A stretch of DNA of 46,471 nt from a virus, in IMG/VR virus record IMGVR_UViG_3300019850_000187, positions 1-46,471 of that record, one strand, 5' to 3'. Positions 18,819-46,277 of the stretch are shown here, piece by piece. Every line of letters begins with the position of its first letter. The stretch's first letter is position 1. Under the pieces are notes generated by a model that had not been told where the DNA came from, made no database searches, and saw only the letters and a list, made by a program, of their open reading frames with translations. Both the position numbers and the translations under genes were made by a program.

Positions 18819-18825
18819 AAATGCA

Positions 18826-19681: not shown

Positions 19682-19807
19682 TTAAATTCCTGAATTTCTT
19701 ACCTCCGTTTTTTGTGGATAAACACCAAGATCTAGCTTCCAATCTAGCCAGATGGTAAAGCTAAATACCACCAAGCCTAAAAGAATTAATTTAACGACTG
19801 TCTTCAT
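19682..19807 (-). CDS. 41-residue single-pass membrane peptide
   Basis: Too short for most gene calls. ATG 19807 overlaps the stop of the previous gene (ATGA). The product starts MKTVVKLILLGLVVFSFTIW, a positively charged N-terminus and one membrane helix, followed by about 20 polar residues. The helix could equally be an uncleaved signal anchor. Such tiny membrane proteins next to a DNA translocase recall accessory subunits in DNA-transfer or filamentous-phage assembly operons, but there is no sequence match to cite. Confidence 0.65.
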   Translation of the reverse strand: MKTVVKLILLGLVVFSFTIWLDWKLDLGVYPQKTEVRNSGI

Positions 19808-20448: not shown

Positions 20449-20449
20449 T

Positions 20450-22143: not shown

Positions 22144-22413
22144 AGTTTATTTCCTTAAATTAGATTAGTGTTAAACACTGTTACAGCTCTACAAATAGAG
22201 TTCTAAGAGTGCTTACATAAAAATAGAACCTTTTACTTAACAATGTAATGTTAATGATCGTGAAACTTTAAAGCGACTGATCGTTTTTGTTTCGTAAGAG
22301 CATTATGCCATTTGTAAGCTTAAACAAATGCATACTTTTTTAAAAAGGTATGCATTTTAAGAAAATTCTGATACACTTTTATTATAAAACTAAATTTTAA
22401 TAAAGGATAAGAA
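22144..22413. promoter_or_regulatory. Divergent promoter region with palindrome
   Basis: The 270-base gap serves the - strand FtsK operon and the + strand operon at 22414. It holds the palindrome AAATGCATAC (22326-22335) and GTATGCATTT (22348-22357), repeated exactly at 24709-24741. TGATACACT at 22369-22377 fits an extended -10 element for the + operon (TG-n-TACACT), 36 bases before the GTG. A regulator bound to the palindrome would sit beside that promoter. Confidence 0.5.
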
Positions 22414-22821
22414 GTGAGTAAAATCTTTAAAGATGAAAATATGTTATTATTGTACAAATATAACAGAAAAGGCATTCTCATGGAGAATAATGAAGAAACA
22501 GCAAGAAATATAGCTGTATCACTTAGGATCAATAAAAAAGACAAAGACTTTTTAAGGGATATGTCTAAGCTTAGAAGTGAAAAAAAGTTCATGCCGGGGA
22601 AAGAAGTATACAATCTTATGCAAATAGGAATAGATACAGTAAAAAAGCAAATGAAAAAAGAGATTGGTGACCGTGAAGTTTCCTGTTTTATAAAGCAGGA
22701 TGTTCTTGACGATGCAATCAAAATAGCTGCTGCACTTGATGAGTTCAATATGTCTTTGCAAATAAAAATAAAAGACAAAAACGACAAGAAAAAACATGAA
22801 AACTCTAATAAAAAAAACTGA
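22414..22821 (+). CDS. Ribbon-helix-helix-like DNA-binding protein (putative)
   Basis: 135 residues from GTG 22414, which has AAAGGA seven bases upstream. Residues about 28-75 fit a ribbon-helix-helix plan: a strand (RNIAVSLRIN), helix (KKDKDFLRDMSKLR) and helix (GKEVYNLMQIGIDTVKKQM). The C-terminus is very basic (KDKNDKKKHENSNKK). Such proteins act as plasmid-copy, partition or relaxosome regulators, or as phage Arc-type repressors. It lies beside one palindrome, and the AATGTCA repeats lie 1.2 kb downstream; either could be its site. No close family recognised. Confidence 0.6.
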   Translation: MSKIFKDENMLLLYKYNRKGILMENNEETARNIAVSLRINKKDKDFLRDMSKLRSEKKFMPGKEVYNLMQIGIDTVKKQMKKEIGDREVSCFIKQDVLDDAIKIAAALDEFNMSLQIKIKDKNDKKKHENSNKKN

Positions 22822-24019
22822 CACTGCCCTCTTTTCCTATTTTAAACTTTTTTCTGTTGCGTTTTCAACCATAGCTATGGTTGGGGTTGCACAGACACTA
22901 TATAAAGATACAAATATATGGATAGCTGGAGCGATTGCCCTGCCATTTGCTTGGTTTTATGCATTCAACTGGATAGGAGCGTTTGAACAAAGATTTAAAC
23001 TGCTCCCTATACTGATAAGTGGAACGATTATGATGGCTTTTTACACGACATGGGTACCAGGGATAAAAAGTTATTACGATAGCAATGCATTGAGTGTCTT
23101 GAAAAGTAATGTCGACTATCAGAACTTAAAAGAGCAACATGGTAGGCTTGGGTATGACGATGCTAAATACAAAGCACTGATTGCTAAATACTCGAATATA
23201 GAAGATACCGTTGCCTCTTTTGAGAGCAATAAAAAAGAGTGGATAGCCAATAAAAATGAAGAGCTTTTAAGTGTAAAATATGAAGCTAATGGAAAAACAA
23301 AGTCGTTAGCTTATAGATCTGATGTTTCGACTGCTTTGAACTTTAGAGAAAATAATACCGAGCTGGATCTACCAGGAAGCCTAAGAACCCCTATGGATGT
23401 AGCGACAATACTTTACGAGAAAGAACTAAAAGAACTAAAAGAACCGGGGACGGTCGCAGCACTAAAAGAGAAAGCCTATAAAAATAGTTTCGCGTACCTC
23501 AAGGCAAAAAGAGATGAGCTTAGAGCTGAGTATGTGGTGTATGAAAACAGAGCTTTAAAAAATAGCTATAGTGAAACGTTTATTTTAACCATGGTTTTGA
23601 TTTTGGGTTTTGTGGTAGAGATACTGCTGAACGCCCTAAGCTTATGGCGAAACCTTATAGTAAAAGAGAAAGAAGAGAAGAGCGAGGTCAATACACTGCT
23701 GACCCTTTTAAACAAAACGTTGTTGATGGACAGACTAAAAAGTTTGAAAGTCATTCATGCCAGTGGTAAAGATGCAGGAAAAGTAGAAGCGATTTACGCA
23801 ACGATGATAAACATAATCGTACTGTATAAAGAGAGAAAAAAAGAAGCGTTTGTACGGTACCGAGATATTAAAAACAGAGATATATGTGAATTCATCTATT
23901 TAGATGTCTATGCAGAGAGACATATTAAGAGTGCTTTTGATTTGCTACAGGGTAAAAAAGTGCAAAGCTTGAGCATGGACGAGATAGAAGAGATGATAAA
24001 AACACACAAAAACTCATGA
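22796..24019 (+). CDS. Multi-pass membrane protein with large loop
   Basis: 407 residues, overlapping the previous gene by 26 bases. Three membrane helices lie near 14-38, 43-62 and 72-92. A large helical, charged domain (about 100-250) follows, with a fourth helix near 257-281 (FILTMVLILGFVVEILLNALSLW). The C-terminal 120 residues are cytosolic and basic/helical (RLKSLKVIHASGKDAGKVEAIYATMI). No enzyme motif is seen. With the FtsK operon opposite it could be part of an envelope DNA-transfer complex or an exclusion protein. Not recognised. Confidence 0.75.
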   Translation: MKTLIKKTDTALFSYFKLFSVAFSTIAMVGVAQTLYKDTNIWIAGAIALPFAWFYAFNWIGAFEQRFKLLPILISGTIMMAFYTTWVPGIKSYYDSNALSVLKSNVDYQNLKEQHGRLGYDDAKYKALIAKYSNIEDTVASFESNKKEWIANKNEELLSVKYEANGKTKSLAYRSDVSTALNFRENNTELDLPGSLRTPMDVATILYEKELKELKEPGTVAALKEKAYKNSFAYLKAKRDELRAEYVVYENRALKNSYSETFILTMVLILGFVVEILLNALSLWRNLIVKEKEEKSEVNTLLTLLNKTLLMDRLKSLKVIHASGKDAGKVEAIYATMINIIVLYKERKKEAFVRYRDIKNRDICEFIYLDVYAERHIKSAFDLLQGKKVQSLSMDEIEEMIKTHKNS

Positions 24020-24368
24020 CATTTTGATGACATTGAAAGCATTTTTTACTACATTTTTCAATGTCATGCCAATGTCAACACTATTTTTTATGATATTTTA
24101 AAAAATTCAATATTTTACTTATGAATATATTTTAATATAATACTTTTTTTAATTAATTATAATATTTTTGGATTTTTGTTAGTTAGATGAAGTATAATAA
24201 GCTAAAACACCTAAAATATTGACAACCATTACACATAAGAACAACATTTAAAAGCATGTTGTGTTGGGTAAGATTTGTTATTTTTTTAGAAATGGGTCAT
24301 TTTTGCTGTTTTTGGGGTAAAAAAGCCAATGTCATTAAATCGCATCGTTCAATGTCATGGCAATGTCA
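24017..24368 (+). repeat. Iteron-like AATGTCA repeats around an AT-rich core (putative origin or operator)
   Basis: Seven AATGTCA copies lie in a 397-base gap. Cluster A: inverted at 24017-24023 and 24028-24034, direct at 24060-24066 and 24071-24077. Cluster B: direct at 24328-24334, 24351-24357 and 24362-24368. Within each cluster two copies are spaced exactly 11 bp, as AATGTCATGCC/AATGTCATGGC, one helical turn. Between the clusters is a long A/T-only stretch (about 24110-24170), suited to strand opening. This is the layout of a plasmid iteron origin or of a multi-site operator. No Rep protein was recognised next to it. Confidence 0.6.
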
Positions 24369-24377
24369 TTGGAATCT

Positions 24378-24390
24378 ATGCTACACTTTT
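24378..24390 (+). promoter_or_regulatory. Extended -10-like promoter for 24417 gene
   Basis: ATGCTACACTTTT ends 26 bases before the ATG and contains TG-n-TACACT, the same form as at 22369 (CTGATACACTTTT) and 24842 (ATGATACACTTCT). Three + strand genes of this block thus share a promoter-like motif. It directly abuts AATGTCA cluster B, so a protein bound there could control it. Confidence 0.45.
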
Positions 24391-24416
24391 AAAAATTTAA
24401 AAAAGAAAGGTGATAG

Positions 24417-24704
24417 ATGGAAGATGTGATTATAAACGTGCTAGATAAAAGCTTTAGGTTCCTCGCTGAAAATACTACTTTTTGCTTGGTGGTATTTTAC
24501 ATTTTGTTCATACTGATAACGTATGATCATAGTGGTAATGACGTGTGGAGTCAAAAACTAAAAGAGATAAATGAGAGAGAGCAACGGGGTGAGTATGTGT
24601 GCCTAGAGAGAATTATGGTAAATGTGTCTATGTTTACCATAGCGATGCTCATGCCATTCATTTTGCTGTTCGAGTGGGCAACTTGTAGTTTTCATAAAAA
24701 ATAA
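24417..24704 (+). CDS. Small two-pass membrane protein
   Basis: 95 residues, with an AAAGAAAGGTG ribosome site. Two membrane helices lie near 18-37 (NTTFCLVVFYILFILITYD) and 68-90 (MVNVSMFTIAMLMPFILLFEWA), with a charged loop between. It has its own promoter-like motif and is followed by the second copy of the ATGCATAC palindrome. Function not recognised; a superinfection-exclusion or channel-type role is possible. Confidence 0.7.
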   Translation: MEDVIINVLDKSFRFLAENTTFCLVVFYILFILITYDHSGNDVWSQKLKEINEREQRGEYVCLERIMVNVSMFTIAMLMPFILLFEWATCSFHKK

Positions 24705-25014
24705 TAAAAAATGCATACAAAATATAAAAATGTATGCATTTCTTAAGTTTCACTACGCTATACTTCAATAAGAAACTAAAAGTTATAAAATCTTTTTATA
24801 GTTAAGATAAAAAGTTTTACTGCTTGATTCTTAAAAAAAATATGATACACTTCTTTTAAGAATTGGTTGTTCTACATAGATTTAACCACTATTTGAACTA
24901 TTTCCTTTATGAAAATGGTTCAGATAGTCGTTTAAGACTTGATGATCTTTAAAATTTTAAACTAAGATAAAAAACATAAAACTTTAATGGTTTAAAAGTG
25001 TTAAGCTTTTGATC
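24705..25014 (+). promoter_or_regulatory. Integrase upstream region with palindrome and operator-flanked promoter
   Basis: No gene in about 310 bases. AAATGCATAC (24709-24718) and GTATGCATTT (24732-24741) repeat the palindrome of 22326-22357 with a 13-base spacer. ATTCTTAAAA (24827-24836) and its exact complement (24854-24863) flank the extended -10-like TGATACACT (24843-24851), which looks like a promoter with an operator over it. About 160 bases of leader then lead to the integrase. Confidence 0.5.
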
Positions 25015-26082
25015 ATGAAAAGTGGACTATCTATTTATATTAGAAACAATGTTATACAGTTGAGTCGACCGACCATCACCGATGGCAGAAAGGTCTATAA
25101 GTGTGTATCTACCAAGCTTCTTAATACTCCAGAAAATATTTCTTATGTTAAGTCATGTGCTGAATCTCTTTTTTTAGAGTTAACAGATCAGCTAGACAAA
25201 AGTGATGTGACTTTTAAAGAGTTTACACCACATGCATTAAGATATATTAACGGTTTTTGTACAAAAGAGACAGCAGACGACAGGGTAGGTAAAATAGAAA
25301 AATATATCTTTCCTGCTTTTGGGTCGGGCAAAGTTGCTTTGATAAAGTCAAAAGACATAGAAGAGTGGCAACTAAAGATGACACAGAAGCATGGAGCAGA
25401 CTTAACTAGACGTTGTAAACAGCTTTTAAAGCGTATATTTGACAGAGCTGTTGTAGAGGAAGTTGTAGAGCTAAACCCAGTAAAAGGTACTGCCACCATA
25501 CGACAACCAAAACAACAACTGCGACAGATATATAGCAAAGAAGAGGTTTCGAGCATTTTAAAACATGCTGACGGTTGGCTGAAGGTTTTTATACTTCTAC
25601 TGGCAACAGGAGGGGTGAGAACCGGTGAAGCCAGTATAATAATGCGTTCTGATGTGGATCTAAAAAGAAGAACCATAAAAATAGATAAATCTCTTAGAAG
25701 AGGGCAGATTAACCCACCCAAAGGTGATGAACGTTTAATCGATATGAATGAGATGCTCTATGGAGCAGTAAGTGAGTATTTAAGTTTATACCATGGTGAG
25801 TATCTTTTTTCACCAGATGGTGGGGAAAGTCCTTTTTACGATGGTGCGAACATAAACCAAAAACACTTTCAGCCACTGCTTAAAAGAGTAGGGGTTAAGT
25901 ACAAAAGTTTGTATTCGCTTCGTCATACTTTTGCTACACTTCAGCTTAGTGGGGGGAATGATTTGGTTTACATTTCAAATCAGCTTGGACACAAAGAGGT
26001 AAGTACTACTTCAAAGTTTTATATTAAGTATATTAAAAATGAAAAAAACATCACGAAAAGTGATGAAATTTTGAATTTTTAA
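25015..26082 (+). CDS. int: Tyrosine recombinase/integrase 1
   Basis: 355 residues from ATG 25015; an in-frame TTG at 25009 is less likely. N-terminal beta-rich arm-binding region (about 1-80), a SAM-like core-binding domain (about 80-165: KIEKYIFPAFGSGKVALI) and a catalytic domain. The catalytic set is visible: Arg in GGVRTGEAS, the YSLRHTFAT box, the QLGHKEVS His and the nucleophile Tyr in SKFYIKY. The first His of the HxxR box is Tyr here, as in many phage integrases. An attP in tRNA sequence starts about 80 bases after the stop, so this is the enzyme that sets the integration site. Confidence 0.95.
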   Translation: MKSGLSIYIRNNVIQLSRPTITDGRKVYKCVSTKLLNTPENISYVKSCAESLFLELTDQLDKSDVTFKEFTPHALRYINGFCTKETADDRVGKIEKYIFPAFGSGKVALIKSKDIEEWQLKMTQKHGADLTRRCKQLLKRIFDRAVVEEVVELNPVKGTATIRQPKQQLRQIYSKEEVSSILKHADGWLKVFILLLATGGVRTGEASIIMRSDVDLKRRTIKIDKSLRRGQINPPKGDERLIDMNEMLYGAVSEYLSLYHGEYLFSPDGGESPFYDGANINQKHFQPLLKRVGVKYKSLYSLRHTFATLQLSGGNDLVYISNQLGHKEVSTTSKFYIKYIKNEKNITKSDEILNF

Positions 26083-33527: not shown

Positions 33528-33689
33528 ATGGTGAAAAATAAAAACCTTTTTGAATCCCTAAAGTATGGGCTTTTGTTTGAATTATTAAAGAAAAGTAAGA
33601 GTTTTCTTATATTATTCCATAGTATCCACTATATTTGGGGATTTGCTTCTATTTTGGCTATTTTGCTTAGGGGTAAACGATGGGGGTAA
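33528..33689 (+). CDS. Possible 53-residue membrane protein
   Basis: ATG 33528 (or GTG 33531), with AGGGG just upstream. One membrane helix (FLILFHSIHYIWGFASILAIL) follows a basic N-terminus. It overlaps the integrase 2 start by 10 bases. The gap also contains AGGGGTAAA at 33509-33517, 33520-33528 and 33669-33677, and GGGGGTAAA at 33682-33690. These could be protein sites around integrase 2, so coding is not certain. Confidence 0.4.
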   Translation: MVKNKNLFESLKYGLLFELLKKSKSFLILFHSIHYIWGFASILAILLRGKRWG

Positions 33690-34771
33690 AAAAGGGTTTT
33701 GTGAATTCTAAGAAGTATGAGGCGAAGGTTAAGCTTTATTATCCTGCTGATTATGCTGATACGAAAGATATTATTTATTATGTTACGTACAAAACATCAG
33801 GTGGGAAAAAAGAACTTGTTCCTGTTGGGAGAAAGTCGAATGGTTGGAACGAGAAGAGAGCTTTTAACCAGAGAGCAAAGTTGATTGATAAAGATAAATT
33901 TGGCTCAGGTGTTCATAATGATTCTGTAACGGTTGGTGAATTGGCTGCTGAATATTTTGAATGGGCTGAAGTACACAATAGGTCCTGGAGGAAAACGCAA
34001 CAAAAATATAATAAGCATATTTCTTATTTAGACAATGTGGTTGTTATGTCTTTGAAAGATTTAGACGTTACTAAGTTACAGAAAAAGTTGAAAGATAAAA
34101 AAGTGGCAGATTCTTATAACAATGACATTGTTGGAATATTGACTGCTGTCGTGAATTTTGGTGTTAAAAAAGGAATTATTGAGTATAGCCCATTTAAGGA
34201 TTTGAAAAAGATGAAGGTGGATAACAGCAGGAAAAGGTGGCTTAAGAAAGATGAGATTGAAAAACTCTTAGAAGTAGTTAAAGACAATGAATATTTCAGA
34301 AGATTTGTATTGATTGGTATTCATACTGGAGCTAGAGCTTCAAGTATCTTGAGCATCAAAAAATCAGATATAGATTTCGATAACATGAGAATAGAAATAA
34401 GGAATCAGAAAGGGAGCAGTAGCTACACGAATCCAATTAGTAAGGAGTTTTGTGATGCAATGATTGACATTGATGATGGTTATATTGTTGGTGGAAATTC
34501 AAAAATAAGATATAACACTTTTTATAATACTTTTTCTAAAGTTTTGAACTCTTTATTTAACAGTTGTCTTGATAAATCTAGCAAAAAAAGAGTAAAGATG
34601 CATACGCTAAGACACACTTATGCTTCACATTTGGCTCTAAAGAATACTCCTTTAGACAAAATTAAAAAGCTTATGGATCACAAGGATATCAATATTACGC
34701 TTAGGTATGCTCACCTTATGCCAGATGCTGGAGAGGAGTTTGTGAAAAAATTATATAAAGAAAGTGAGTAG
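33680..34771 (+). CDS. Tyrosine recombinase/integrase 2
   Basis: 363 residues. N-terminal beta-sheet (about 1-75, YVTYKTSGGKKELVPVGRK), SAM-like domain (about 85-175), catalytic domain with all residues: Arg in GARASSIL, Lys in the beta-hairpin, HTLRHTYAS, MDHKD and the nucleophile Tyr in LRYAHLMPDAG. It is not a close copy of integrase 1: different N-terminus and a full HxxR box. Unusually, it lies in the late operon between lysis and packaging genes, on the late strand. It could resolve genome multimers, invert or excise something, or be a relic of a second mobile element. No att site could be assigned. Confidence 0.92.
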   Translation: MGVKKGFVNSKKYEAKVKLYYPADYADTKDIIYYVTYKTSGGKKELVPVGRKSNGWNEKRAFNQRAKLIDKDKFGSGVHNDSVTVGELAAEYFEWAEVHNRSWRKTQQKYNKHISYLDNVVVMSLKDLDVTKLQKKLKDKKVADSYNNDIVGILTAVVNFGVKKGIIEYSPFKDLKKMKVDNSRKRWLKKDEIEKLLEVVKDNEYFRRFVLIGIHTGARASSILSIKKSDIDFDNMRIEIRNQKGSSSYTNPISKEFCDAMIDIDDGYIVGGNSKIRYNTFYNTFSKVLNSLFNSCLDKSSKKRVKMHTLRHTYASHLALKNTPLDKIKKLMDHKDINITLRYAHLMPDAGEEFVKKLYKESE

Positions 34772-34776: not shown

Positions 34777-35565
34777 GTGAAGTTTAAAAAACTAAAAGCT
34801 CCATTTGGGTGGGTCGGTGGCAAGAGTCAGTTAGCAACTGATATTGTTAAGATGATGCCTGAACATAAGATGTATGTTGAAGTGTTTGGAGGTGGGCTTA
34901 ATGTGTTGTACGCAAAAGAGAAGATTAACCTTGAGGTTATTAATGACATTAATGGAGAGTTGGTTAACCTGCATAGGCACATTAGAAAGAGTCCAGAGAG
35001 TTTAAGTTTTTATCTCAAGCAATTTTTGATTAGTCGTGAGTTGTTTGATGATATGAAGTTTAAGAGATTTAAACCTAGAAATGATATTGAAAGAGCAGCC
35101 GTTTATTATTATCTTATCTCTCAAAGTTTTGGGAGTAAGGGTGATAATTTTGCGATGAGTACCAAGAGCTTTAGAAAGCCTAAATATATTTACAAGAGTT
35201 TTTATAAATGGTCAAGGCGTTTACGCAATACAACGATAGAAAATATGAGCTTTGAGAAGCTAATTAAGACTTATGATAAAGAGGGTGCATTTTTTTATTG
35301 TGACCCACCTTATTATAAAACTGAGAAGTATTATAAAAATATTGGTGAGTTTGGTGAGAGGGAGCATAGGCTTTTGGCAGATTTGTTGCGTAAGTCCAAG
35401 AGTAAGTGGCTGGTCTCTTATAATGACTGTGAGTTTATTTGTGAGCTTTACCAAGGATTTAACATTTTAGAATCTAAAGAGATTGAATATTTACTTGGTA
35501 AGAATGCACATGGTAAAAGGAAAGTTATTAAAGAGATTTATATTTGTAATTATGAGGTAGGATAA
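34777..35565 (+). CDS. dam: Adenine-specific DNA methyltransferase (Dam/D12 class)
   Basis: 262 residues, GTG start five bases after integrase 2. Class D12 motifs: PFGWVGGKSQL (SAM-binding motif X), YVEVFGGGLNVLY (motif I) and FFYCDPPYY (motif IV, DPPY catalytic). The target cannot be read from sequence; GATC is usual for this family. It would methylate phage DNA against restriction, or tune packaging and gene expression. Cotranscribed with the packaging genes. Confidence 0.93.
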   Translation: MKFKKLKAPFGWVGGKSQLATDIVKMMPEHKMYVEVFGGGLNVLYAKEKINLEVINDINGELVNLHRHIRKSPESLSFYLKQFLISRELFDDMKFKRFKPRNDIERAAVYYYLISQSFGSKGDNFAMSTKSFRKPKYIYKSFYKWSRRLRNTTIENMSFEKLIKTYDKEGAFFYCDPPYYKTEKYYKNIGEFGEREHRLLADLLRKSKSKWLVSYNDCEFICELYQGFNILESKEIEYLLGKNAHGKRKVIKEIYICNYEVG

Positions 35566-36818: not shown

Positions 36819-38714
36819 ATGTCAATATTAATAGATTTTTTAGAGATTAATAGTTTAAACTTTGTTAATGCTGTTAAGCCACTACCAAATCTACTAATAT
36901 CTGATTGGGCTGATGAATATCGTGAGATTCCTTATGGAAGCTCTGAACCTGGGCGATGGCGAACAGTCCGAACACCATATCTGAAAGAGATAATGGATGT
37001 GATGAGTCCACAATCTTCTGTTCAAAAAGCCGTTGTTATCAAAGGCACACAGCTCGGTTTTACAGAGCTGGGCAACAATATAATAGGCTACTATATTCAC
37101 ATAGATCCTAGAAGTATTGGTCTATGGCTCCCAACTGATGCACTTGCAGAGCGACATGCTAAAAAGAAGATCTGGAAGATGATAGATGCTACTCCATCAC
37201 TTAAAGATGCTGTTCGACCTCGTAACAAAGGTACAGGTGAAAACTCAACCATTACACAGCTAATGTTTACAGGTGGTGCTGCTTCCATCTATGGTTCAAA
37301 CTCCTCTGCATCTTACCGTTCTGATTCTATCTCTGTAGCCATCAAAGATGATATTGATGGTTTTGTTGATGATGTAGAAGGCGAGGGTTCCCCGATAGAG
37401 CTTATTGAGAACCGTACCGATTCTTATGCCAATCGTAAGATCTATGAAAACTCTACACCAACCATTGATGGCATGAGCCATATTCAAACTGAGTTTGAAG
37501 AGTCCACACAGTCTGAATATTATATGCCATGTCCAGAGTGTACCCCAAAAGACAAAACACTTCAAAATAAATCCAACATGGTTAAGTTTGACATTGATAA
37601 CTTTAAATACACCCATGAAAACTACAAACTCATTTCCAATGTAGAATTTTGTTGTCCTCACTGTGGCTCACTCATCAAAGAGCATAACAAAACATGGATG
37701 ATGGACTATAACAATGGTGCTAAATTCATCAACAAACAAGAGCATAAAGTCAAAGGGTTTAAAGTTAACTCTTTTTACTCTCCTCTAGGCTGGACCAGCT
37801 GGGTAAGAATCATAGAAGAGTACCTAAAAGCCAAGAAAAAGCTCAAAGATGGTGACGACAGGCTGATGAAACGTTTCATCAACACGCGTTTGGCTGAGGT
37901 CTACAAACCAATGGTTAAAAAAACCGATGCAGACGAGCTTAAAAAACTGGTAATCGGTATAGATGAAGGAGTAGTACCAAAAGACACTTGGAAAATTGTT
38001 ATGTCAGTGGACGTACAAGGTGACCACTTTTGGTATGAGGTTCGCTGCTTACTTTATGGTGTCTCTTATCATGTTTTACAGTATGGAAGAGCCGAAACAT
38101 GGGAAGACATAGAAAACATCATGCGTGACCAATACTATGATGCAGAGGAGAGAGCCTACCAAGTAACTGTATGTGCTGTAGATAGTGGATACCGAACCGA
38201 TGAAGTCTATGAATTCTGTGTGGAAAATGAAGACATGTGTATACCGATCAAAGGTAAAACCACCATGGAAGCACGTTATCAAATCTCTACTCAAGAGAGG
38301 GAAACGTATAACATTAGACTCTATACTATCAATCCAAACAACTTTAAAGACATTTACGATGGTAAATTAAAAAGAAGTTTAGCACTGGTAGAAAAAAGAG
38401 AGTTGTCTGAAAAAAATGTCATAACATTCCATGCTCAATCAGATGCAACGCTCTATGAACAACTCACATCAGAGTACCGAATAACCATTAAAAACCGTGG
38501 TATAGAAAAGTTTGACTGGAAACGGTACAAAAAAGACAACCACCTCTTTGACTGTGCAACCTACAATACCTTTTTAGCAGAGTTCCTACACCATAGACGG
38601 CAAAAGAGACCAGCAGAAATTAAGAAAGTAGCACCAAAGCCTAAAGGTTCTAAGAGTGCTGGTAAAAGTAGGGGTGGTGGTCGTATTGATAGGAGTCATT
38701 TAGATAATTACTAA
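36819..38714 (+). CDS. terL: Terminase large subunit (GpA family)
   Basis: 631 residues. N-terminal ATPase: adenine-binding region near residue 25-60, Walker A-like VIKGTQLGFTE (about 72-82) and the YRSDSISVAIKDDIDGFVDDVEGEG Walker B region. A Cys pair region (CPECT, CPHCG, about 235-290) may bind zinc. Nuclease domain with MSVDVQGD, VDSGYRTDEVYEF and NHLFDCATYN, the acidic residues for DNA cutting. The end is basic and Gly-rich. Drives DNA into the prohead. In lambda-like genomes gpW and portal follow directly; here 5.9 kb of other genes come between. Confidence 0.95.
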   Translation: MSILIDFLEINSLNFVNAVKPLPNLLISDWADEYREIPYGSSEPGRWRTVRTPYLKEIMDVMSPQSSVQKAVVIKGTQLGFTELGNNIIGYYIHIDPRSIGLWLPTDALAERHAKKKIWKMIDATPSLKDAVRPRNKGTGENSTITQLMFTGGAASIYGSNSSASYRSDSISVAIKDDIDGFVDDVEGEGSPIELIENRTDSYANRKIYENSTPTIDGMSHIQTEFEESTQSEYYMPCPECTPKDKTLQNKSNMVKFDIDNFKYTHENYKLISNVEFCCPHCGSLIKEHNKTWMMDYNNGAKFINKQEHKVKGFKVNSFYSPLGWTSWVRIIEEYLKAKKKLKDGDDRLMKRFINTRLAEVYKPMVKKTDADELKKLVIGIDEGVVPKDTWKIVMSVDVQGDHFWYEVRCLLYGVSYHVLQYGRAETWEDIENIMRDQYYDAEERAYQVTVCAVDSGYRTDEVYEFCVENEDMCIPIKGKTTMEARYQISTQERETYNIRLYTINPNNFKDIYDGKLKRSLALVEKRELSEKNVITFHAQSDATLYEQLTSEYRITIKNRGIEKFDWKRYKKDNHLFDCATYNTFLAEFLHHRRQKRPAEIKKVAPKPKGSKSAGKSRGGGRIDRSHLDNY

Positions 38715-38779: not shown

Positions 38780-38821
38780 ATGAGTCTTGTTTCAAATTCA
38801 ATTCACCAGTTATCTATCTAG
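38780..38821 (+). CDS. Possible 13-residue leader peptide
   Basis: ATG 38780 has a strong CGAGGAG site at proper distance, but the frame stops after 13 codons (MSLVSNSIHQLSI). Either a regulatory leader peptide for the cargo genes or the remnant of a truncated gene at the island edge. The 105 bases after it hold no gene. Confidence 0.35.
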   Translation: MSLVSNSIHQLSI

Positions 38822-38926
38822 GTTTAAACGTCTGTTTTTTGTAAAAATATGCATATTGTTGTCTCTTTTTATGTAAAAATAAGACAAAATAGAGTAAAAT
38901 ATTATAAATAAACAAAAGGATAAAAG

Positions 38927-39034
38927 ATGAAAAATACATTTATGAAAAATCCAACAGCCGAACTAATCGAGAAGAGTTACTCTTCATACCTTGAAGAGGG
39001 TGATGCTGAGATTTTGGAGCAATTTTATAATTAG
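38927..39034 (+). CDS. 35-residue protein at start of cargo island
   Basis: AAAAGGA site eight bases before ATG 38927. The product starts MKNTFMKNPTAELIEKSYSS and ends acidic (YLEEGDAEILEQFYN). It ends 11 bases before the HTH gene, whose ribosome site overlaps the stop. A small partner of the HTH protein (toxin/antitoxin or co-regulator) is possible. Not recognised. Confidence 0.5.
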   Translation: MKNTFMKNPTAELIEKSYSSYLEEGDAEILEQFYN

Positions 39035-39045
39035 AGGAAAGGAAT

Positions 39046-39378
39046 ATGATGAACAGAAAAATATCTGAATATGAACTAGCATCTTTTGCAAATGTTTCAA
39101 CTCGGACATTGAGCAGATGGAAAAAGTCGGATTTAAAAAAGTACGACAGGCTTACAAAGCAGTATCAAGAGAGTGAGATTTTTTCTCTAAGAAGTTTTCT
39201 AAAAGAAAACAAAATTGAGTTGATGGGAAACTTTGGTATCTATTTTACAGATGTAGATGACTACTCTGTTGGTATTTTAGCAGAAGATACAAACAGCATG
39301 ATAACTAATCTGAATAATTCAGAGGAGGTAATAGAAAAAATAAAAGAAAATCTGAAGCTACTTAAAGAGTGGCTTTAA
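39046..39378 (+). CDS. HTH DNA-binding protein of cargo island
   Basis: 110 residues, GAGGAAAGG site. Residues about 5-30 form a helix-turn-helix (SEYELASFANVSTRTLSRWKKSDLKKY), Xre- or transposase-like. The rest is a small alpha/beta domain (LMGNFGIYFTDVDDYSVGILAEDTN) and a C-terminal coiled coil (VIEKIKENLKLLKEWL). Probably the local regulator of the island. It is followed by a perfect 8-bp hairpin at 39387-39408. Confidence 0.65.
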   Translation: MMNRKISEYELASFANVSTRTLSRWKKSDLKKYDRLTKQYQESEIFSLRSFLKENKIELMGNFGIYFTDVDDYSVGILAEDTNSMITNLNNSEEVIEKIKENLKLLKEWL

Positions 39379-39386
39379 CTGGAGGT

Positions 39387-39408
39387 GAGAGAAGTTGTAG
39401 CTTCTCTC
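39387..39408 (+). repeat. Hairpin between HTH gene and cargo operon
   Basis: GAGAGAAG (39387-39394) and its exact complement (39401-39408) with a 6-base loop. No T-run follows. It could limit readthrough from the HTH gene into the large cargo operon. Confidence 0.5.
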
Positions 39409-39464
39409 GGTAGGGTCAATTTCGAAAACTGATCCTTTATTATACAATTTTAAAGGTTAATATT

Positions 39465-40667
39465 ATGGCAAGATATACAGTAGCATGTGATACATGTGGT
39501 TTAGATATGGACTTTGTTACATTTGGTGGGAATAGTAGAGACAGACAGTGGAGAGCTGACCATTGGTCGCATGAATGTGATGAATGTAAACAAAAGAGAA
39601 TTACTGCTGAAAATGAAAAAAATGCAGTGAAAAACAGAGAAGATGGCTTACCTGTTTTAGTTGGAAGCGAAAAACAGATTGCTTGGGCTGAAACTATTAG
39701 ATCAAAGTTTTTAGATATCTCTTCAAAAGTTATGGAAAATATCGGAAGCATCTATGAAGTGATAGATGAAGTCTCAAGAATAAAGATTAAGGGTATAATT
39801 TTTAAAAACCCTAATTTGAAACATGAAATCAATGTTGACTTTGTGTTTCAAAATAATATAGAGCAAATTAATTATAAGCTTACTAAGCTATTTGAAAATC
39901 AATCCTCTTCATTTTGGATAGATAGACGAGGTAGAGAACTGCATCAGCTCTTGGAAGAGATTGAAGATGAAGAGATAGTAGTTCAAAAAGATATTGAAAA
40001 AAACTTACAAAAAGAGGCAGAACTAGAAGCAACTGTTCGCCCATCGGAGCCAATCACAGAAACCATAGCAACTATATCAATCATATCTGATGAGAAAATC
40101 TCTATCTCTTTCCCTGAAAAAAGAGAAGACTTTAGATTGTTAGTCAAAGAGCATAGGTATAGTTGGAGTGGTGGAGCATGGGAAAGAAAAATAGGTTATA
40201 TTTCTGGAAATATTACAGATAGAGTAGCCAATATAGGAAATATTCTACTTGATGCTGGGTTTATAGTTAGAATTTTTGACCAAGAGCTTCGACAAAAAGC
40301 AATAGATGGCATCTATGAGCCTGAACATACTCGCTGGATTCAGCTATACAAAGGAAAGTTCTCTATTAGGTGGAGAAGATACCACGAGGATTTTTATGAG
40401 GAAGCTCGAAAAATCCCAACATCAAAGTGGGATAATCCAACAGTAGATGTGAAATCAGAGCAGTTTGAAGCTGTTTTGGACTTTGCAAATGAGTATGATT
40501 TTAGATTCACTTCAAAGGCACAGGAACTTTTGGAAAAGGCAAAGAGAGCCAAAGAGGCTCAACTTATACCTGAGGTTAAAAAAGGGAAAGAATCCACAAA
40601 AGTAAAACTAAAAGAGAGAGATTTTACAGTAGAAGAGGTTGAGGTAGATGAAGCCTTTCTTGATTAA
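39465..40667 (+). CDS. Zinc-finger protein encoded beside SNF2-type helicase
   Basis: 400 residues. The N-terminus has a zinc-binding set Cys8, Cys11, Cys38 and Cys41 (CDTC and CDEC). Residues about 45-185 are helical with EKQIAWAETIRSKF, a motif seen in small primase/helicase-associated domains. A second region (about 205-275) has KISISFPEKREDFRLLVKEHRYSWSGGAWERKI, reminiscent of the HARP-like DNA annealing modules fused to some SNF2 helicases. The C-terminus is charged. It overlaps the helicase gene by 20 bases, so the two probably work as one complex. The domain names are impressions from sequence. Confidence 0.7.
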   Translation: MARYTVACDTCGLDMDFVTFGGNSRDRQWRADHWSHECDECKQKRITAENEKNAVKNREDGLPVLVGSEKQIAWAETIRSKFLDISSKVMENIGSIYEVIDEVSRIKIKGIIFKNPNLKHEINVDFVFQNNIEQINYKLTKLFENQSSSFWIDRRGRELHQLLEEIEDEEIVVQKDIEKNLQKEAELEATVRPSEPITETIATISIISDEKISISFPEKREDFRLLVKEHRYSWSGGAWERKIGYISGNITDRVANIGNILLDAGFIVRIFDQELRQKAIDGIYEPEHTRWIQLYKGKFSIRWRRYHEDFYEEARKIPTSKWDNPTVDVKSEQFEAVLDFANEYDFRFTSKAQELLEKAKRAKEAQLIPEVKKGKESTKVKLKERDFTVEEVEVDEAFLD

Positions 40668-42063
40668 AACCGAGCTTATGCTCCAACAAAGTAAAGCAGT
40701 CAATAAATTCACAAGAGTGATTGACGGTAAAACCAAGTTTTTTAGATTCTTGGGTCTTTTTATGGAGATGGGAACAGGAAAAACCCTAACAACAATGGAG
40801 TTAGTACGCCAAAGAGCCGAGCGAATCTCTAAAGTTGTATGGGTTTGCCCAGTATCTACCAAAGAGACCATTAGAAAAGAGATTCAAAAGCATACAACAT
40901 CAAAAGATGTGTATGTTTTTAATGATAAAACAGATGATGCTAATATGCCTGATGTCTCTTGGTATATTGTTGGTTTAGAATCCATTAGTCAAAGCGATAG
41001 AGTCACTTTAGCTTTTAATGCATTGATTGATAGTGATACATGCGTGATAGTAGATGAATCCTCTTTTATTGCAAATCACAAATCCAAAAGAGCAGAACGA
41101 TTATCATTTATCACAAAAGAGTGCCGATATAGATTTATCTTAACTGGAACACCCTTGACCAATGGGATTGTGTCTCTCTATAGTCAAATGAAGTTTCTAA
41201 GCCCAAAGATTTTGAATTACCAAAGTTTTTATAGCTTTGCCAATAATCACTTGGTCTATAGTGATAAGTTCCCTGGTATGATTGTTAGCACTCTACACGA
41301 GGAGTATTTAGCCTCCAAGATAGCACCTTATGTTTATCAGGTCACAAAAGAGGAGTGTTTAGATTTACCTGAGAAGATATATGACACACGATACTTTAGA
41401 ATGAGTGAAGAGCAGAGAGAGGCTTACGACAATGCAAAGATGGAGTTTTTGGAGATGATAGACCCAACAGAGTTTAGTGCTGTTGATATTTTCAAACTCT
41501 TTCAGGCTCTTCAGCAGATTGTGAGTGGGTACAGAAATATAGATATGCGTGAGCCTATCTATTTTGAGGATAGCTATAGAGTTGATGCATTAGAAAATGT
41601 TATCAGAACTATACCAGATGGGAAAAAGGTGATTATTTGGGCAAAATATCATTATGATATTGAGCTTATCAAAAAATCACTTGGTGACAAAGCTGTTTAC
41701 TATACTGGTCTTTTGAGTGAAAAACAAAAGTCAAAAGTTTTAGAAGAGTGGAGAGCTGAAAAAGATTACTTGGTTATTACTCAAGCATCAGGTGGGTTTG
41801 GTCTTACTTTAGTAGAAGCTCATTATGCCATCTACTATAACAATAGCTTTAGTTACTCAAAGAGGGTTCAAAGTGAGGATAGGTGTCACCGTATCGGTCA
41901 AGATGAAAAGGTGACTTATATTGATATTTGTTGTTCAGATAGTATTGATGAGAGGATTTTGGGAGCTATTTGGGACAAAGAGAGTGTAGCAAATGCTTTT
42001 AAATCAGAGATTGAAAAAATCAAAGATGAGAAATCTTTGAAAAAATTTATAAAGGGGCTATGA
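40648..42063 (+). CDS. SNF2-type DEAD/DEAH helicase-translocase
   Basis: 471 residues, short for the family, with the core only. Walker A EMGTGKT (40-46), motif Ia VVWVCPVSTKETI, DEAD-type VIVDESS (133-139), motif III LTGTPLTNG, and the second lobe with KKVIIWAKYH, VITQASGGFGLTLVEAH and motif VI SEDRCHRIGQ (about 409-418). Such enzymes move along DNA and remodel bound proteins; phage versions occur in recombination and DNA-modification or restriction loci. No nuclease domain is fused. Tight overlaps on both sides place it in the cargo operon. Confidence 0.93.
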   Translation: MKPFLIKTELMLQQSKAVNKFTRVIDGKTKFFRFLGLFMEMGTGKTLTTMELVRQRAERISKVVWVCPVSTKETIRKEIQKHTTSKDVYVFNDKTDDANMPDVSWYIVGLESISQSDRVTLAFNALIDSDTCVIVDESSFIANHKSKRAERLSFITKECRYRFILTGTPLTNGIVSLYSQMKFLSPKILNYQSFYSFANNHLVYSDKFPGMIVSTLHEEYLASKIAPYVYQVTKEECLDLPEKIYDTRYFRMSEEQREAYDNAKMEFLEMIDPTEFSAVDIFKLFQALQQIVSGYRNIDMREPIYFEDSYRVDALENVIRTIPDGKKVIIWAKYHYDIELIKKSLGDKAVYYTGLLSEKQKSKVLEEWRAEKDYLVITQASGGFGLTLVEAHYAIYYNNSFSYSKRVQSEDRCHRIGQDEKVTYIDICCSDSIDERILGAIWDKESVANAFKSEIEKIKDEKSLKKFIKGL

Positions 42064-42257
42064 TGAAAATTAGAGTTAGAGATTATGGGGAAAAGTTTGA
42101 GATTGAAAATGTTGAAACAAAGACAAAGTTTAAACTTTTTTATGACAATGACAAAAGCTATATCAAGAACATATTATCATGTCTGCCAAATATGGGTATT
42201 GTTGAGTATATTTCTTATGAGAAATATGATGAATTTGAGTTAAAAGAGCTGAAATGA
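42060..42257 (+). CDS. 65-residue protein between helicase and IbrA-like gene
   Basis: Four-base overlaps on both sides (ATGA), so clearly translated with its neighbours. A small beta-rich fold: KIRVRDYGEKFEIENVETKTKFKLFYD then NMGIVEYISYEKYDEFEL. Could be a specificity or adaptor subunit. Not recognised. Confidence 0.7.
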   Translation: MMKIRVRDYGEKFEIENVETKTKFKLFYDNDKSYIKNILSCLPNMGIVEYISYEKYDEFELKELK

Positions 42258-43543
42258 AAAAGAAATATACCAACCAAAATGTATATCAAGCCACTCAACA
42301 ACGGCTTGAATATATTTTTAAAGAGTTTGAAAACATAGAGATAGCCTTTAGCGGTGGAAAAGATAGTGGAGTGCTTTTAAATCTCGTAATCGATTACAAA
42401 AAAGCTCACAATCTTAGCAACACTATTGGACTCTTTCATTTGGATTATGAAGCTCAATACTATGCTACAACAGAGTATGTAGATAGTGTATATGCAGAGC
42501 TTGATGGAGAGATAGAGAACCTTAGATGTTGTGTGCCTGTTCGATGTTCTACCTCTACAAGTATGTTTCATAGCTACTGGAGACCGTGGGAGGAGAGCAA
42601 AAAGGATATTTGGGTTAGAGATTTACCTCCAAAGTATCTTTCAAAAGATGATTTTGATTTTATCCATGATGATATGACAGATTATGAGTTTCAGGAGAAA
42701 ATATCTCTTTGGTGGAGTAAGAAGACTGGGTTAAAAACAGCAGTACTTATTGGTATTCGTGCTGATGAATCGCTTGATAGGTTTAGAGCTATCGTGAGTG
42801 ATAGAAATATCAACAAATATGATGATATCAGTTGGTCAAAAAAGACCAATGAAATGGTTTCAAACTTCTACCCAATTTATGACTGGACCACTGAAGATAT
42901 TTGGACAGCTAACACAAAATTTGGCTGGTCGTACAACAAATTGTATGATCTGTTTTATTACGCAGGGGTATCAATTCATGACATGAGGGTTGCATCACCA
43001 TTTCATGACGCTGCTAAATCATCATTGGCACTTTATCGAATACTTGACCCAAATGTATGGGGAAAAATGGTAAGCCGTGTAAATGGTGTTAATTTTACAG
43101 CTCTGTACGGGGGAACAAAAGCCATGGGTTGGAGAAACATTGAGAAGCCCTCTCATTTTACGTGGGAACAATACGCAAACTTTCTCCTTGATACACTTCC
43201 AGTTGATCTGGCAAATAGCTACAGAGAAAAACTAGCAACAAGCATAACCTTTTGGCAGAACAAAGGGGGAGTTTTACCAGTAGAAGCCATTGAGGACTTA
43301 AAAAGTGCAGGTATAGATATTGCAGTTGGAACAAAGACCAACTACAAAACAGACAAGAAGCCTGTAACCATGAATTACATTGACGATATAGACTCAAAGA
43401 ACTTCACGCTTATACCTACATGGAAGCGATTGTGTATCACCATACTTAAAAATGACCACGTGGGTAAATATATGGGCTTTAGTCAAACGAAAAAAGAGAG
43501 TGCAAAGAGAAAAAAAGCACTTGAAAAATATAAAGGACTGTAA
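42254..43543 (+). CDS. ibrA: PAPS reductase-family ATP pyrophosphatase (DUF3440, IbrA-like)
   Basis: 429 residues. PP-loop SGGKDS (33-38) binds and splits ATP to AMP and pyrophosphate. The family motif GIRADES (167-173) and the LRCCVPVRCSTSTSMF, YWRPWEESKKDIWVRDLP region (about 90-125) match IbrA. The C-terminal redox Cys motif of true PAPS reductases is not seen, so sulfate reduction is unlikely; the related DndC uses the same fold in DNA phosphorothioation. Typically paired with a ParB-like IbrB gene, as here. What it modifies in phages is unsettled. One-base overlap with the GNAT-like gene. Confidence 0.92.
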   Translation: MKKKYTNQNVYQATQQRLEYIFKEFENIEIAFSGGKDSGVLLNLVIDYKKAHNLSNTIGLFHLDYEAQYYATTEYVDSVYAELDGEIENLRCCVPVRCSTSTSMFHSYWRPWEESKKDIWVRDLPPKYLSKDDFDFIHDDMTDYEFQEKISLWWSKKTGLKTAVLIGIRADESLDRFRAIVSDRNINKYDDISWSKKTNEMVSNFYPIYDWTTEDIWTANTKFGWSYNKLYDLFYYAGVSIHDMRVASPFHDAAKSSLALYRILDPNVWGKMVSRVNGVNFTALYGGTKAMGWRNIEKPSHFTWEQYANFLLDTLPVDLANSYREKLATSITFWQNKGGVLPVEAIEDLKSAGIDIAVGTKTNYKTDKKPVTMNYIDDIDSKNFTLIPTWKRLCITILKNDHVGKYMGFSQTKKESAKRKKALEKYKGL

Positions 43544-43950
43544 TGAAAATTGAAAAATACATACAAGGGAAAGATGACAAAGCGTTCTTTGGACTTTTAG
43601 GCTTCTGGTTGACCAGCCAAGATGTGCATAAAGAGTTAGGAACGGCTATTACATCAAAAAGTGATGATGTTTGGTATGTTCAGACAGTTGATAGTCAAGC
43701 AGTCTCTTTTGTGCTTGGTAGAAAAACCAAAAGTACTAATGCTATGCATCTAATATTTATCTATGGATTACACAAAGATAAGATACTTAAAAAAGTTATA
43801 GCTGATTGTACAAATGATGGTCTATCTATGCTTTGGACAAATGCACGAGACACAGATAAAATCTGGTCTCAATTTGGATTTAAAAACAAACGAGAAACAA
43901 ATGGTACAGGTAAATTTACAAGATTTGAAAAGGAATTAAAAGATGATTAG
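43543..43950 (+). CDS. GNAT-fold acyltransferase-like protein
   Basis: 135 residues. The strand-helix order fits GNAT: VWYVQTVDSQAVSFVLGR, then AMHLIFIYGLHKDKILKKVIADC (beta4-alpha3) and MLWTNARDTDKIWSQFGFKNKRETN (beta5, the NxxxxxxxxxGF end motif). The acetyl-CoA loop is not a perfect match. Mu Mom, which modifies adenine, has the same fold, so a base-modifying role alongside IbrA/IbrB is attractive but unproven. It overlaps the ParB-like gene by eight bases. Confidence 0.7.
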   Translation: MKIEKYIQGKDDKAFFGLLGFWLTSQDVHKELGTAITSKSDDVWYVQTVDSQAVSFVLGRKTKSTNAMHLIFIYGLHKDKILKKVIADCTNDGLSMLWTNARDTDKIWSQFGFKNKRETNGTGKFTRFEKELKDD

Positions 43951-44449
43951 CCCAGTATATAACATTAAAAAGATACACGAAAGTAAAATCAGAGCAAACA
44001 GCTACAATCCAAATAGTGTGGCAAGTCCAGAGATGAAACTTTTATTAAAGTCCATCCGAGAAGATGGCTACACCATGCCAATAGTATGTTACTACATAGA
44101 AGAAGATGATATATATGAGATAGTGGATGGATTCCATCGCTATACAACACTTATGCAAAATAAAGATATTTATGACAGAGAGGAAGGGTGTTTACCAGTA
44201 TCTGTTATAGACAAAGACATCTCAAACCGTATGGCTTCAACCATTCGTCACAACCGTGCAAGAGGTTCGCACAACATTGACCTCATGGTAAACATTGTCG
44301 GTGACTTAGTAGATGCAGGAATGAGTGACACATGGATTATGAAAAACATTGGTATGGATGCTGATGAGTTATTAAGACTAAAACAGATTAGTGGCTTGGC
44401 TTCTATGTTTGCCAATGGCGAGTTTGGTAAAAGTTGGGTGGCTTCATAA
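43943..44449 (+). CDS. ibrB: ParB/Srx-fold protein (IbrB-like)
   Basis: 168 residues. ParB-like N-domain: NPNSVASPEMKLLLKSIREDGYTMPIVCYY, then EIVDGFHRY (nucleotide-binding loop) and a TIRHNRARGSHNIDLM segment as in IbrB. The C-terminal third is HTH-like (WIMKNIGMDADELLRLKQISG). ParB-like domains bind CTP or ATP and DNA. In IbrA/IbrB pairs it is thought to guide or regulate the ATP pyrophosphatase. Last gene of the cargo island; array B begins 58 bases later. Confidence 0.9.
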   Translation: MISPVYNIKKIHESKIRANSYNPNSVASPEMKLLLKSIREDGYTMPIVCYYIEEDDIYEIVDGFHRYTTLMQNKDIYDREEGCLPVSVIDKDISNRMASTIRHNRARGSHNIDLMVNIVGDLVDAGMSDTWIMKNIGMDADELLRLKQISGLASMFANGEFGKSWVAS

Positions 44450-44641: not shown

Positions 44642-44875
44642 TTGGAAACTTTAGGTGAAGAGTTAGAATTTGTTAAGAAACAACTCAAAAAAGCTTTAAT
44701 GGCTTCTTCTCGTGAAATCAATAACCGTAAAGTACAACAAGAAGTTAAAGAGCTTCGAGCAGAACGCGATGGTCTTATTGAAAAAATAAACAAATACGGT
44801 AGCAATCACATCGAAGGTGCCAACACTTCTCCAAAACAAGTCAATAGGAAATCACGTGTCATTATTTCCTACTAA
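44642..44875 (+). CDS. Head completion protein, gpW-like (lambda)
   Basis: 77 residues, TTG start with AGAGGAG upstream. Two charged helices (LGEELEFVKKQLKKALMA and VQQEVKELRAERDGLIEKI), close to lambda gpW in size and place (before the portal). It overlaps the portal gene by 20 bases. First gene after array B. The call rests on position and helix pattern; sequence similarity to gpW is weak. Confidence 0.6.
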   Translation: METLGEELEFVKKQLKKALMASSREINNRKVQQEVKELRAERDGLIEKINKYGSNHIEGANTSPKQVNRKSRVIISY

Positions 44876-46277
44876 AAAGCTCATAGCCTTGGCACGTGAC
44901 TACATCCACAGAGCCACAGCACCAACCCAAATCAAAAGAAACTTTTATGAGGGGGGCAAACGTAACGGTTCTTCTAATCTCTTTATAGGGCTACAACCTT
45001 TTGAAAGCACAGCAGGTCATGCACGTGATGTGCTTAGAGCAAGAGCTAGATACTTGCACGAAAACAACGGCATAGTATCAGGGATAGACAGCTCCATAAA
45101 GGTAAACTCTATAGGAAACGGCTTAAAGTTTCAGTCAAAAACAGGTGATGCAAACTTAGACAATGCTATTGAAAAACTTTGGGGTAAATGGATAGAGGCT
45201 GAAAACTGTGACTATACTCAACGTGAAAACTTTAATGACATGCAAAAGACCATCCTTGGTGCAAGAATGACTGATGGTGAAATACTTATTAATAAAGTAA
45301 TAACCAAATCTAAAAATCATCCTTTAAAGCTTCAACTCATAGAAGTAGACAGGTTCGCAGCAGTACAAAGTAAATTCACTCCTAAACAAAACTTTTTTGT
45401 TGATGGTATAGAGCTTGGCACACGTGGTGAGCCAAAGTACTTTAACATTACAGAGGGTTGGTCGACTGTTAAACGTGTCCCTGCTAAAAACATTATCCAC
45501 TATTATAAACGAGACAACCGACCAAGCCAATACCGTGGCATTAGCGAGTACAAGCAGACCATTGTAGACCTACGAAACTTTGCTAAATATACTCAGCTTA
45601 CGGTAGAGGGTGCAAGTGCTAGAGCCTCTTTAGCCTATGCAGTAGAGACAGAAAACCTTGCATCTCATCAAAACTTTAGAGAAAACAATGATGCCAATGA
45701 ACCCATAGAGTTTATTAACGACGCGTTTGTTTATTACCTAAACAAAGGTGAGAAAATGCATCAGTTAGACGGTGCAAAGTCTACTGGAGAGTTTGGAGAG
45801 TTCATTAAAGCAACCATTCGTCTTATAGCTGTTGGTCGTAAAATCTCTTATGAGTTAGCATTTAGAGACTATTCTCAAGTAAACTTTTCATCAGCTAGAG
45901 CTTCTATTTTGCAAGATCATAAGAAGTTTGATGAAGAGCAGATACTTATGGCTAGGTATGTGCTTACACCCATTTTTAAAACTTGGATAGAAGCCAATGT
46001 TTTAGCAGGGAATCTACCTATTTCTCCATTTATGTTTTATCAAGATAGAGATTATTTTGAACAACCGAGATGGGTAGCTCCTAAAAGAGAGTGGGTTAAC
46101 CCACTCCAAGACATTAAAGCCATAGAAAAAGAGTTGGCTTTAGGGTTAATCACTTACGAAGACGTGCTGGGTTCACGTGGTAAAGACCTTCATGAGGTTA
46201 TAGAGCAAAAGAAAAAAGAAAATGAACTGTTAAAAGAAGCAGGGATAATTACACAAGAGGAGTTAAAAAGTGCCTAA
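44856..46277 (+). CDS. B: Portal protein (lambda gpB family)
   Basis: 473 residues from GTG 44856, which has AGGA six bases upstream; the frame is open to GTG 44817 without a ribosome site. Lambda-portal signature: HARDVLRARARYLHENNGIVSGI, then DGEILINK, LQLIEVDRFA, HYYKRDNRPSQYRGIS and the FRDYSQVNFSSARAS box. The C-terminus is a Lys/Glu helix (HEVIEQKKKENELLKEAG). Twelve copies form the DNA entry ring. The protease-capsid GTG lies inside its last codons. Confidence 0.93.
   Translation: MSLFPTKKLIALARDYIHRATAPTQIKRNFYEGGKRNGSSNLFIGLQPFESTAGHARDVLRARARYLHENNGIVSGIDSSIKVNSIGNGLKFQSKTGDANLDNAIEKLWGKWIEAENCDYTQRENFNDMQKTILGARMTDGEILINKVITKSKNHPLKLQLIEVDRFAAVQSKFTPKQNFFVDGIELGTRGEPKYFNITEGWSTVKRVPAKNIIHYYKRDNRPSQYRGISEYKQTIVDLRNFAKYTQLTVEGASARASLAYAVETENLASHQNFRENNDANEPIEFINDAFVYYLNKGEKMHQLDGAKSTGEFGEFIKATIRLIAVGRKISYELAFRDYSQVNFSSARASILQDHKKFDEEQILMARYVLTPIFKTWIEANVLAGNLPISPFMFYQDRDYFEQPRWVAPKREWVNPLQDIKAIEKELALGLITYEDVLGSRGKDLHEVIEQKKKENELLKEAGIITQEELKSA

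Follow-up and report, generated by a model that had tools for sequence, protein, structure and literature searches.

An IbrA–IbrB cassette between the terminase and portal genes of a phage: a candidate accessory machine for DNA-directed modification

What are the genes that separate the terminase from the portal gene in the virus record IMGVR_UViG_3300019850_000187, and do they act together? The stretch analyzed here (46,471 nt, positions 1 to 46,471 of that record, hereafter the window) had been given a preliminary description in which this region was read as an inserted island encoding an SNF2 helicase, a zinc-finger protein, IbrA, a GNAT-like enzyme, and IbrB. We found all five named genes to be intact on the + strand within 39465-44449 (Table 1), and non-structural genes do separate the terminase large subunit gene (TerL), which ends at 38714, from the portal gene, which starts at 44817. 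Seven + strand open reading frames (ORFs) lie between TerL and the gpW-like and portal genes (from 44642), in the order helix-turn-helix (HTH) ORF, zinc-ribbon protein, SNF2 ATPase, 65-aa ORF, IbrA, GNAT-fold protein, and IbrB, and successive ORFs across 39465-44449 overlap by 20, 4, 4, 1, and 8 bp, confirming the tight packing described earlier and resembling translationally coupled operons. The start of the island had been placed at 38780, which is merely a 13-codon ORF. It is uncertain whether the HTH-like ORF belongs to the cassette, and the 65-aa ORF matched no family among the Pfam and PHROG profiles. We tentatively favor the reading that this cassette is an accessory DNA-directed modification machine made of two separable modules.

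A neighborhood conserved nowhere else had been named beforehand as grounds for rejecting the preliminary reading. We collected loci by scanning with the ParB protein and with the zinc-ribbon protein and then running profile searches on all fetched loci, and found that the set is widely conserved: 185 loci encode both IbrA and IbrB, and the full zinc-ribbon–SNF2–IbrA–GNAT–IbrB set recurs in the same order in 17 further viral contigs, among which two pairs (L099/L100 and L095/L101) are close copies. The terminases and portals of these five-gene carriers are only distantly like those of the window (e.g., L092; TerL 5e-24, portal 2e-14). The cassette of L092 likewise sits between TerL and the portal gene, and in L003, IbrA–IbrB is followed by a gpW-like ORF and a distant portal. 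Recurrence of five genes in the same order is far beyond chance. The cassette genes also show a low ratio of non-synonymous to synonymous substitution rates (dN/dS 0.04–0.14, although most pairs are close to saturation in dS; ~0.04 for IbrA compared with L003), so purifying selection is strong. That unrelated cargo was recently inserted by chance between TerL and the portal gene, without any joint function, is a reading largely refuted by the recurrence of one gene order in phages that are not related; it also runs counter to the purifying selection, and we regard it as highly improbable, even though the site is variable, with the relative L209 lacking the cassette and L210 carrying only a GNAT, a ParB protein, and a 166-aa ORF.

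The relatives also bear on the claim that the island was inserted. In L208 and L211, the flanks are 81–90% identical to window DNA, and the order is TerL, 26 bp, a 60-bp fragment of the 3′ part of ibrB (Table 1), the gpW-like gene, and the portal gene; this fragment next to TerL is the scar of a deletion of the cassette in these two relatives. At the same site, L210 carries its GNAT and 166-aa ORF with a diverged IbrB, and L209, which matches L210 closely on both sides, retains only ~33 bp from the end of the 166-aa ORF, the mark of a second, independent loss. Judged by these scars, the cassette has been lost at least twice from close relatives. Its base composition is that of the phage, and it shares the avoidance of GATC (4 sites seen versus 24.5 expected). 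The scars, which indicate loss over gain, together with the phage-like composition and the shared site avoidance, suggest that the cassette is an old and dispensable resident and not a recent insert, so that “inserted” gives way to an old accessory locus. The phages that naturally carry or lack it offer matched controls.

How the cassette varies between loci gives some insight into how it may work. IbrA–IbrB is the core of the cassette family, and homologues of the two proteins occur in E. coli, Listeria, Bacteroidales, and Helicobacter as well as in hundreds of phage contigs. Among 77 loci obtained by the ParB scan alone, this core was accompanied by SNF2 in 35, by a protein of ~140 aa in 38, by both in 1, and by neither in 3 (p = 3e-17 for exclusivity, a statistic that ignores kinship between loci). 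The position between IbrA and IbrB is swappable: it holds a GNAT in 18 loci including the window, a methyltransferase in 2, and an ectoine-synthase-type cupin in 27 viral loci, most of them on metagenomic contigs (e.g., L008, L009, L052, and L055), and is vacant in some others; in some loci the cupin is fused as the N-terminal part of IbrB. A GNAT also adjoins IbrA, directly upstream of it, in 18 bacterial loci, mostly Bacteroidales chromosomes. The cupin matches ectoine synthase over its full length (PF06339, up to 1.8e-43), and the phage cupins retain the E, Y, and H positions expected in true ectoine synthases, where we take them to act as metal ligands. Our literature search turned up no publication that connects ectoine synthase with phage IbrA/ParB. 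GNAT and cupin occurred together in 0 of the 185 IbrA–IbrB loci; in the ParB-only sample, which is unbiased, this exclusivity did not reach significance (p = 0.29), so the argument from exclusivity rests on SNF2 versus the ~140-aa protein.

Several further observations concern these companions. The ~140-aa family has no Pfam match and lies near IbrA/IbrB when SNF2 is absent (L055:3320-3766, L083:3545-3988, and L010:5628-6026). A stand-alone protein of ~90 aa, corresponding to a C-terminal piece of DUF3440 (1.1e-9), adjoins IbrA in many cupin-type phages (e.g., L015:533-802 and L055:3672-3953). The small ORFs adjoining IbrA in XCL1123 and Amjad_SA were considered as GNATs and rejected, as they are a cupin and a third, unnamed family.

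The cassette also comes apart along one line. The L091 genes for the zinc-ribbon protein and SNF2 share 77% DNA identity with those of the window, and its IbrA, GNAT, and IbrB are far diverged, so zinc-ribbon/SNF2 and IbrA/GNAT/IbrB recombine separately; L210 points the same way. Also in L091, a 342-aa ORF between SNF2 and IbrA (L091:12461-13489) has faint SNF2 similarity and no Pfam match, and is possibly a degenerate second motor.

In the first of these modules, the SNF2 protein has a two-lobed core with a Walker A motif and a DExx box, and the Walker A residue K45 and the box II residues D136-E137 are conserved in 79 homologues. The zinc-ribbon protein, which belongs to no Pfam family, combines a ribbon (C8/C11/C38/C41), a helical domain (QIxWA...WWIDxR), two beta-beta-alpha-beta-beta-alpha modules, and a C-terminal tail (V-x-V-D-E-x-L), and C11, C38, C41, Q71, W74, and R79 are invariant in a 24-homologue alignment. 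The two C-terminal modules come from an AlphaFold2 (AF2) model with a predicted local distance difference test (pLDDT) score of 87, and give a weak fold match to the XPB N-terminal domain. The tail motif also terminates unrelated 107–132-aa ORFs preceding SNF2 in other phages, and the zinc-ribbon protein is probably a split-off partner of the motor, its conserved acidic tail docking on the motor to give a split translocase.

These two proteins invite another explanation, namely counter-defense at R-loops or single-stranded DNA (ssDNA), in which the zinc-ribbon protein would bind ssDNA, SNF2 would re-anneal DNA or strip CRISPR or repair complexes, and IbrA and IbrB would be regulators or passengers. 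The helical segment (G-S-E-K-Q-I-A-W-A-E...W-W-I-D-x-R) has a profile match to the anti-CRISPR AcrIF23 (6.4e-5; best domain i-E 0.034) and a faint one to AcrIE7 (0.5–0.7), which is reported to bind and sequester the ssDNA of R-loops (PMC13131331). The weak XPB match fits the same idea, and in Streptococcus phage D4276, AcrIIA5 lies two genes upstream of an SNF2–IbrA–IbrB unit. However, the AcrIF23 match spans a short motif that may merely mark a common DNA-binding helix, HARP (PF07443) had no match at E 10, and IbrA/IbrB are conserved far beyond the range of the motor, so that we consider this explanation improbable.

The second module would hold the chemistry. In IbrA, the SGGKDS motif and D64, E66, R169, E172, and S173 are conserved across 165 homologues, among which C93 is the only widely conserved cysteine. 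In IbrB, NPN, DGxHR, and HNRARGxH are nearly invariant (175 homologues), and the homologue in phage CHPC877 carries the annotation IbrB. The GNAT assignment had been made from the single window sequence, in which the family is not detectable; it is now borne out by 10 of 24 homologues matching PF00583 (best 7.4e-11) and by a predicted fold (AF2 pLDDT 92) that matches GCN5 and SACOL1063 with template modeling (TM) scores up to ~0.7. A sequence scan with the window GNAT alone returned zero relatives, which surfaced only via neighborhood and profile. An assignment as EctA was rejected, as NCBIfam gives RimI-type matches and none to EctA.

In the literature searched, no biochemical function is assigned to IbrA/IbrB, and the earlier statement that this exact set has no assigned function holds up. 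One possibility is that the cassette controls transcription or host takeover, with IbrB as an NTP-driven DNA clamp, IbrA making or sensing an adenylated ligand, and SNF2 remodeling a DNA-bound protein, so that host or phage genes are switched. IbrA and IbrB are annotated as co-activators of prophage genes, and IbrAB is reported to activate eib genes in E. coli. Chromosomes commonly carry IbrAB as an operon of its own, and E. coli ybdNM is a regulated operon with YbdM as a predicted regulator (PMC9068703). Against this, IbrB is a short, single-domain protein without the signature of ParB partition proteins (it scores 19.6 bits with TIGR00180, for which the cut-off is 58.45), and the exchange of GNAT, cupin, and methyltransferase resembles tailoring chemistry and not gene control. 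We therefore think transcriptional control unlikely.

The same exchange could also belong to small-molecule or nucleotide metabolism, in which IbrB would act like the ParB-fold serine kinases, IbrA would activate a nucleotide or an amino acid, and a soluble product would be completed by the GNAT or cupin so as to aid infection or block a defense signal. The full-length match of the cupin to ectoine synthase fits such a pathway, as do a weak alignment of IbrB with free serine kinase across the DGxHR region (E 0.47) and the chromosomal GNAT–IbrA–ParB operons that have no motor. In phages, though, the core is linked to an SNF2 motor in 60 of 106 loci, and a soluble pathway would have no need of one, which leaves this alternative with a rather low probability in our estimation.

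The reading that we favor, modification directed at DNA, would work as follows. The zinc-ribbon protein would hold DNA and dock by its acidic tail on the SNF2 motor; IbrA would spend ATP to adenylate, and so activate, a carbonyl or carboxylate of its substrate; IbrB would be the NTP-binding partner coupling this activation to DNA; and the small variable enzyme, a GNAT here and a cupin or methyltransferase elsewhere, would tailor the activated group as the motor carries the second module along phage DNA. The proteins would form a complex that presumably benefits the phage. We propose DNA, or a DNA-bound target, as what is modified because chemistry-type partners in one position occur together with a PP-loop activating enzyme and a DNA motor, and the link to modification chemistry, which the preliminary description had suggested, gains weight because a cupin or methyltransferase replaces the GNAT in other phages. 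In published phage systems, ParB-fold genes often lie beside DNA-modification enzymes, one case with ATP-dependent tailoring being CmoX/CmoY (PMC12783734), and a survey describes phage ParB folds that are fused to methyltransferases and bind CTP, ATP, or GTP (PMC12704722). More broadly, it is possible, if somewhat doubtful, that IbrA–IbrB is the core of a widespread, undescribed pathway of activation and interchangeable tailoring, aimed at phage DNA by the split SNF2 motor or by the unrelated ~140-aa companion, depending on the lineage. The fixed core, the swappable small enzymes, the two nearly exclusive companions, and the repeated loss make a testable pathway out of a gene pair that lacked an explanation, and the tailoring enzymes predict chemical classes to search for.

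Several findings weigh against this proposal. The window GNAT lacks the R/Q-x-x-G-x-G/A loop for binding coenzyme A, a similar loop being kept in the homologues of L036, L091, L095, L098, and L099, and the otherwise common C404 of IbrA is a G in the window copy. A DndC-like iron-sulfur cysteine set is not conserved among the 165 IbrA homologues. In many bacterial chromosomes, IbrA–IbrB is encoded alone or with a GNAT, amid assorted housekeeping genes and with no SNF2 gene, so DNA need not be the substrate; chromosomal operons of this type usually lack the motor. Both GGCC (1 seen versus 40 expected) and GCGC (2 versus 19) are avoided in the extreme in the window, and the avoidance of GGCC, GCGC, and GATC in the relatives (L091, L208–L211) holds with and without the cassette. 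Such avoidance is unlike that of a phage protected by base modification, and since that of GGCC and GCGC is independent of the cassette, blanket protection from restriction, the anti-restriction half of the earlier suggestion, is disfavored. GATC is nearly absent in relatives (L091: 1 versus 63 expected) and is avoided less in the window, which has a Dam-type gene.

The window as a whole, with 36% G+C, encodes a head protease fused to the major head protein, two integrases, a methylase of the Dam type, and tail genes, besides the GpA-type terminase and the lambda-type portal. An exact 141-bp direct repeat at its ends makes the record a circular assembly of ~46.3 kb. The closest isolate-phage match of TerL is Sulfurimonas phage SNW-1 at 33% identity, and a host from the Campylobacterota is only a guess based on this match. 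The right flank had been described as gpW; a Pfam search of this ORF gave no gpW match, and its position and its homologues, which directly precede the portal gene in L208–L211, L003, and L121, speak for the assignment.

Table 1. Coordinates of the cassette, its flanking genes, and related features in the window.
Feature	Coordinates	Strand	Basis
Dam-type gene	34777-35565		
Terminase large subunit TerL (GpA type), left flank	36819..38714	+	Pfam GpA_ATPase 2.7e-67, GpA_nuclease 4.7e-51
HTH-like ORF at the head of the stretch, 110 aa	39046..39378	+	Weak matches only: Phage_CI_repr 0.16, phrog_4151 0.0026
Zinc-ribbon protein, 400 aa, proposed partner of SNF2 motor	39465..40667	+	24-sequence alignment; AF2 pLDDT 87
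SNF2-family ATPase, 471 aa, motor core only	40648..42063	+	Pfam SNF2-rel_dom 2e-22, phrog_62 7.6e-105
65-aa ORF between SNF2 and ibrA	42060..42257	+	4-bp overlap on each side
IbrA, PP-loop ATP pyrophosphatase with DUF3440	42254..43543	+	DUF3440 2.3e-81, PAPS_reduct 7.9e-13, phrog_2302 2.5e-98
GNAT-fold protein, 135 aa	43543..43950	+	Homologue PF00583 matches and AF2 fold
IbrB, stand-alone ParB/sulfiredoxin-fold protein	43943..44449	+	phrog_2159 5.3e-74
ibrB piece surviving as 60-bp scar in L208 and L211	44308..44367	+	blastn 91.7% identity, collinear again from 44538
gpW-like head-completion ORF, right flank	44642..44875	+	Position and conservation in relatives
Portal protein, right flank	44817..46277	+	Phage_portal_2 1.1e-69

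Elsewhere in the window, the two integrase genes are both of the tyrosine type (25009-26082 and 33680-34771), and the first adjoins a likely nested element. Besides its own integrase (25009-26082), the block 18157-26082 contains small membrane-like ORFs and, on the minus strand, a gene resembling FtsK/SpoIIIE (20450-21709). GATC and CCGG occur there at normal frequency and are avoided by the rest of the phage (for GATC in the 18.0–26.1 kb region, 22 seen versus 18 expected, unlike the cassette), and the block contains the sole GGCC (21023) and one of the two GCGC sites. The block thus has the look of a nested element, perhaps inovirus-like, that the phage acquired recently.

Among known systems, Dnd phosphorothioation also pairs a PAPS-reductase-type ATPase with a ParB-superfamily protein (DndC/DndB), and IbrA had been called related to DndC. 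That relation is marginal (7.8e-7 over 66 residues) and does not extend to the DndC-like cysteine set; a PADLOC scan covering the cassette only gave no match to DndD or DndE, and a Dnd assignment was rejected on the IbrA cysteines and the partners absent from the cassette. The SNF2 core matches DpdE profiles (1.9e-30) of the 7-deazaguanine system Dpd, in which DpdB is ParB-like, whereas a DpdA-like transglycosylase and other Dpd proteins were not found in the cassette. Mom of phage Mu has a GNAT-like fold, as does the window GNAT. Hypermodification by CmoA/CmoX/CmoY likewise joins ATP-dependent activation and tailoring to a ParB-domain neighbor (PMC12783734); in contrast to phage hypermodification, the window cassette has no C5-methyltransferase homologue and no asparagine-synthetase-type ligase. 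SMARCAL1/HARP and XPB-type helicases also carry beta-beta-alpha modules, here predicted, next to an SNF2 motor, an arrangement that in the window is split into two genes and in which HARP is undetectable by sequence. The Streptococcus Moineauviruses D4276 and CHPC877 and Lactobacillus phage AQ113 encode an SNF2-like helicase, IbrA, and IbrB in the same order, without a GNAT, with a 109–132 aa ORF in place of the zinc-ribbon protein, and located after the lysis genes. Finally, IbrA/IbrB of E. coli ECOR-9 and YbdN/YbdM of K-12 belong to the same DUF3440 PP-loop and short ParB-fold families and show the same adjacency, to which the window adds an SNF2 motor, its zinc-ribbon partner, and a GNAT.

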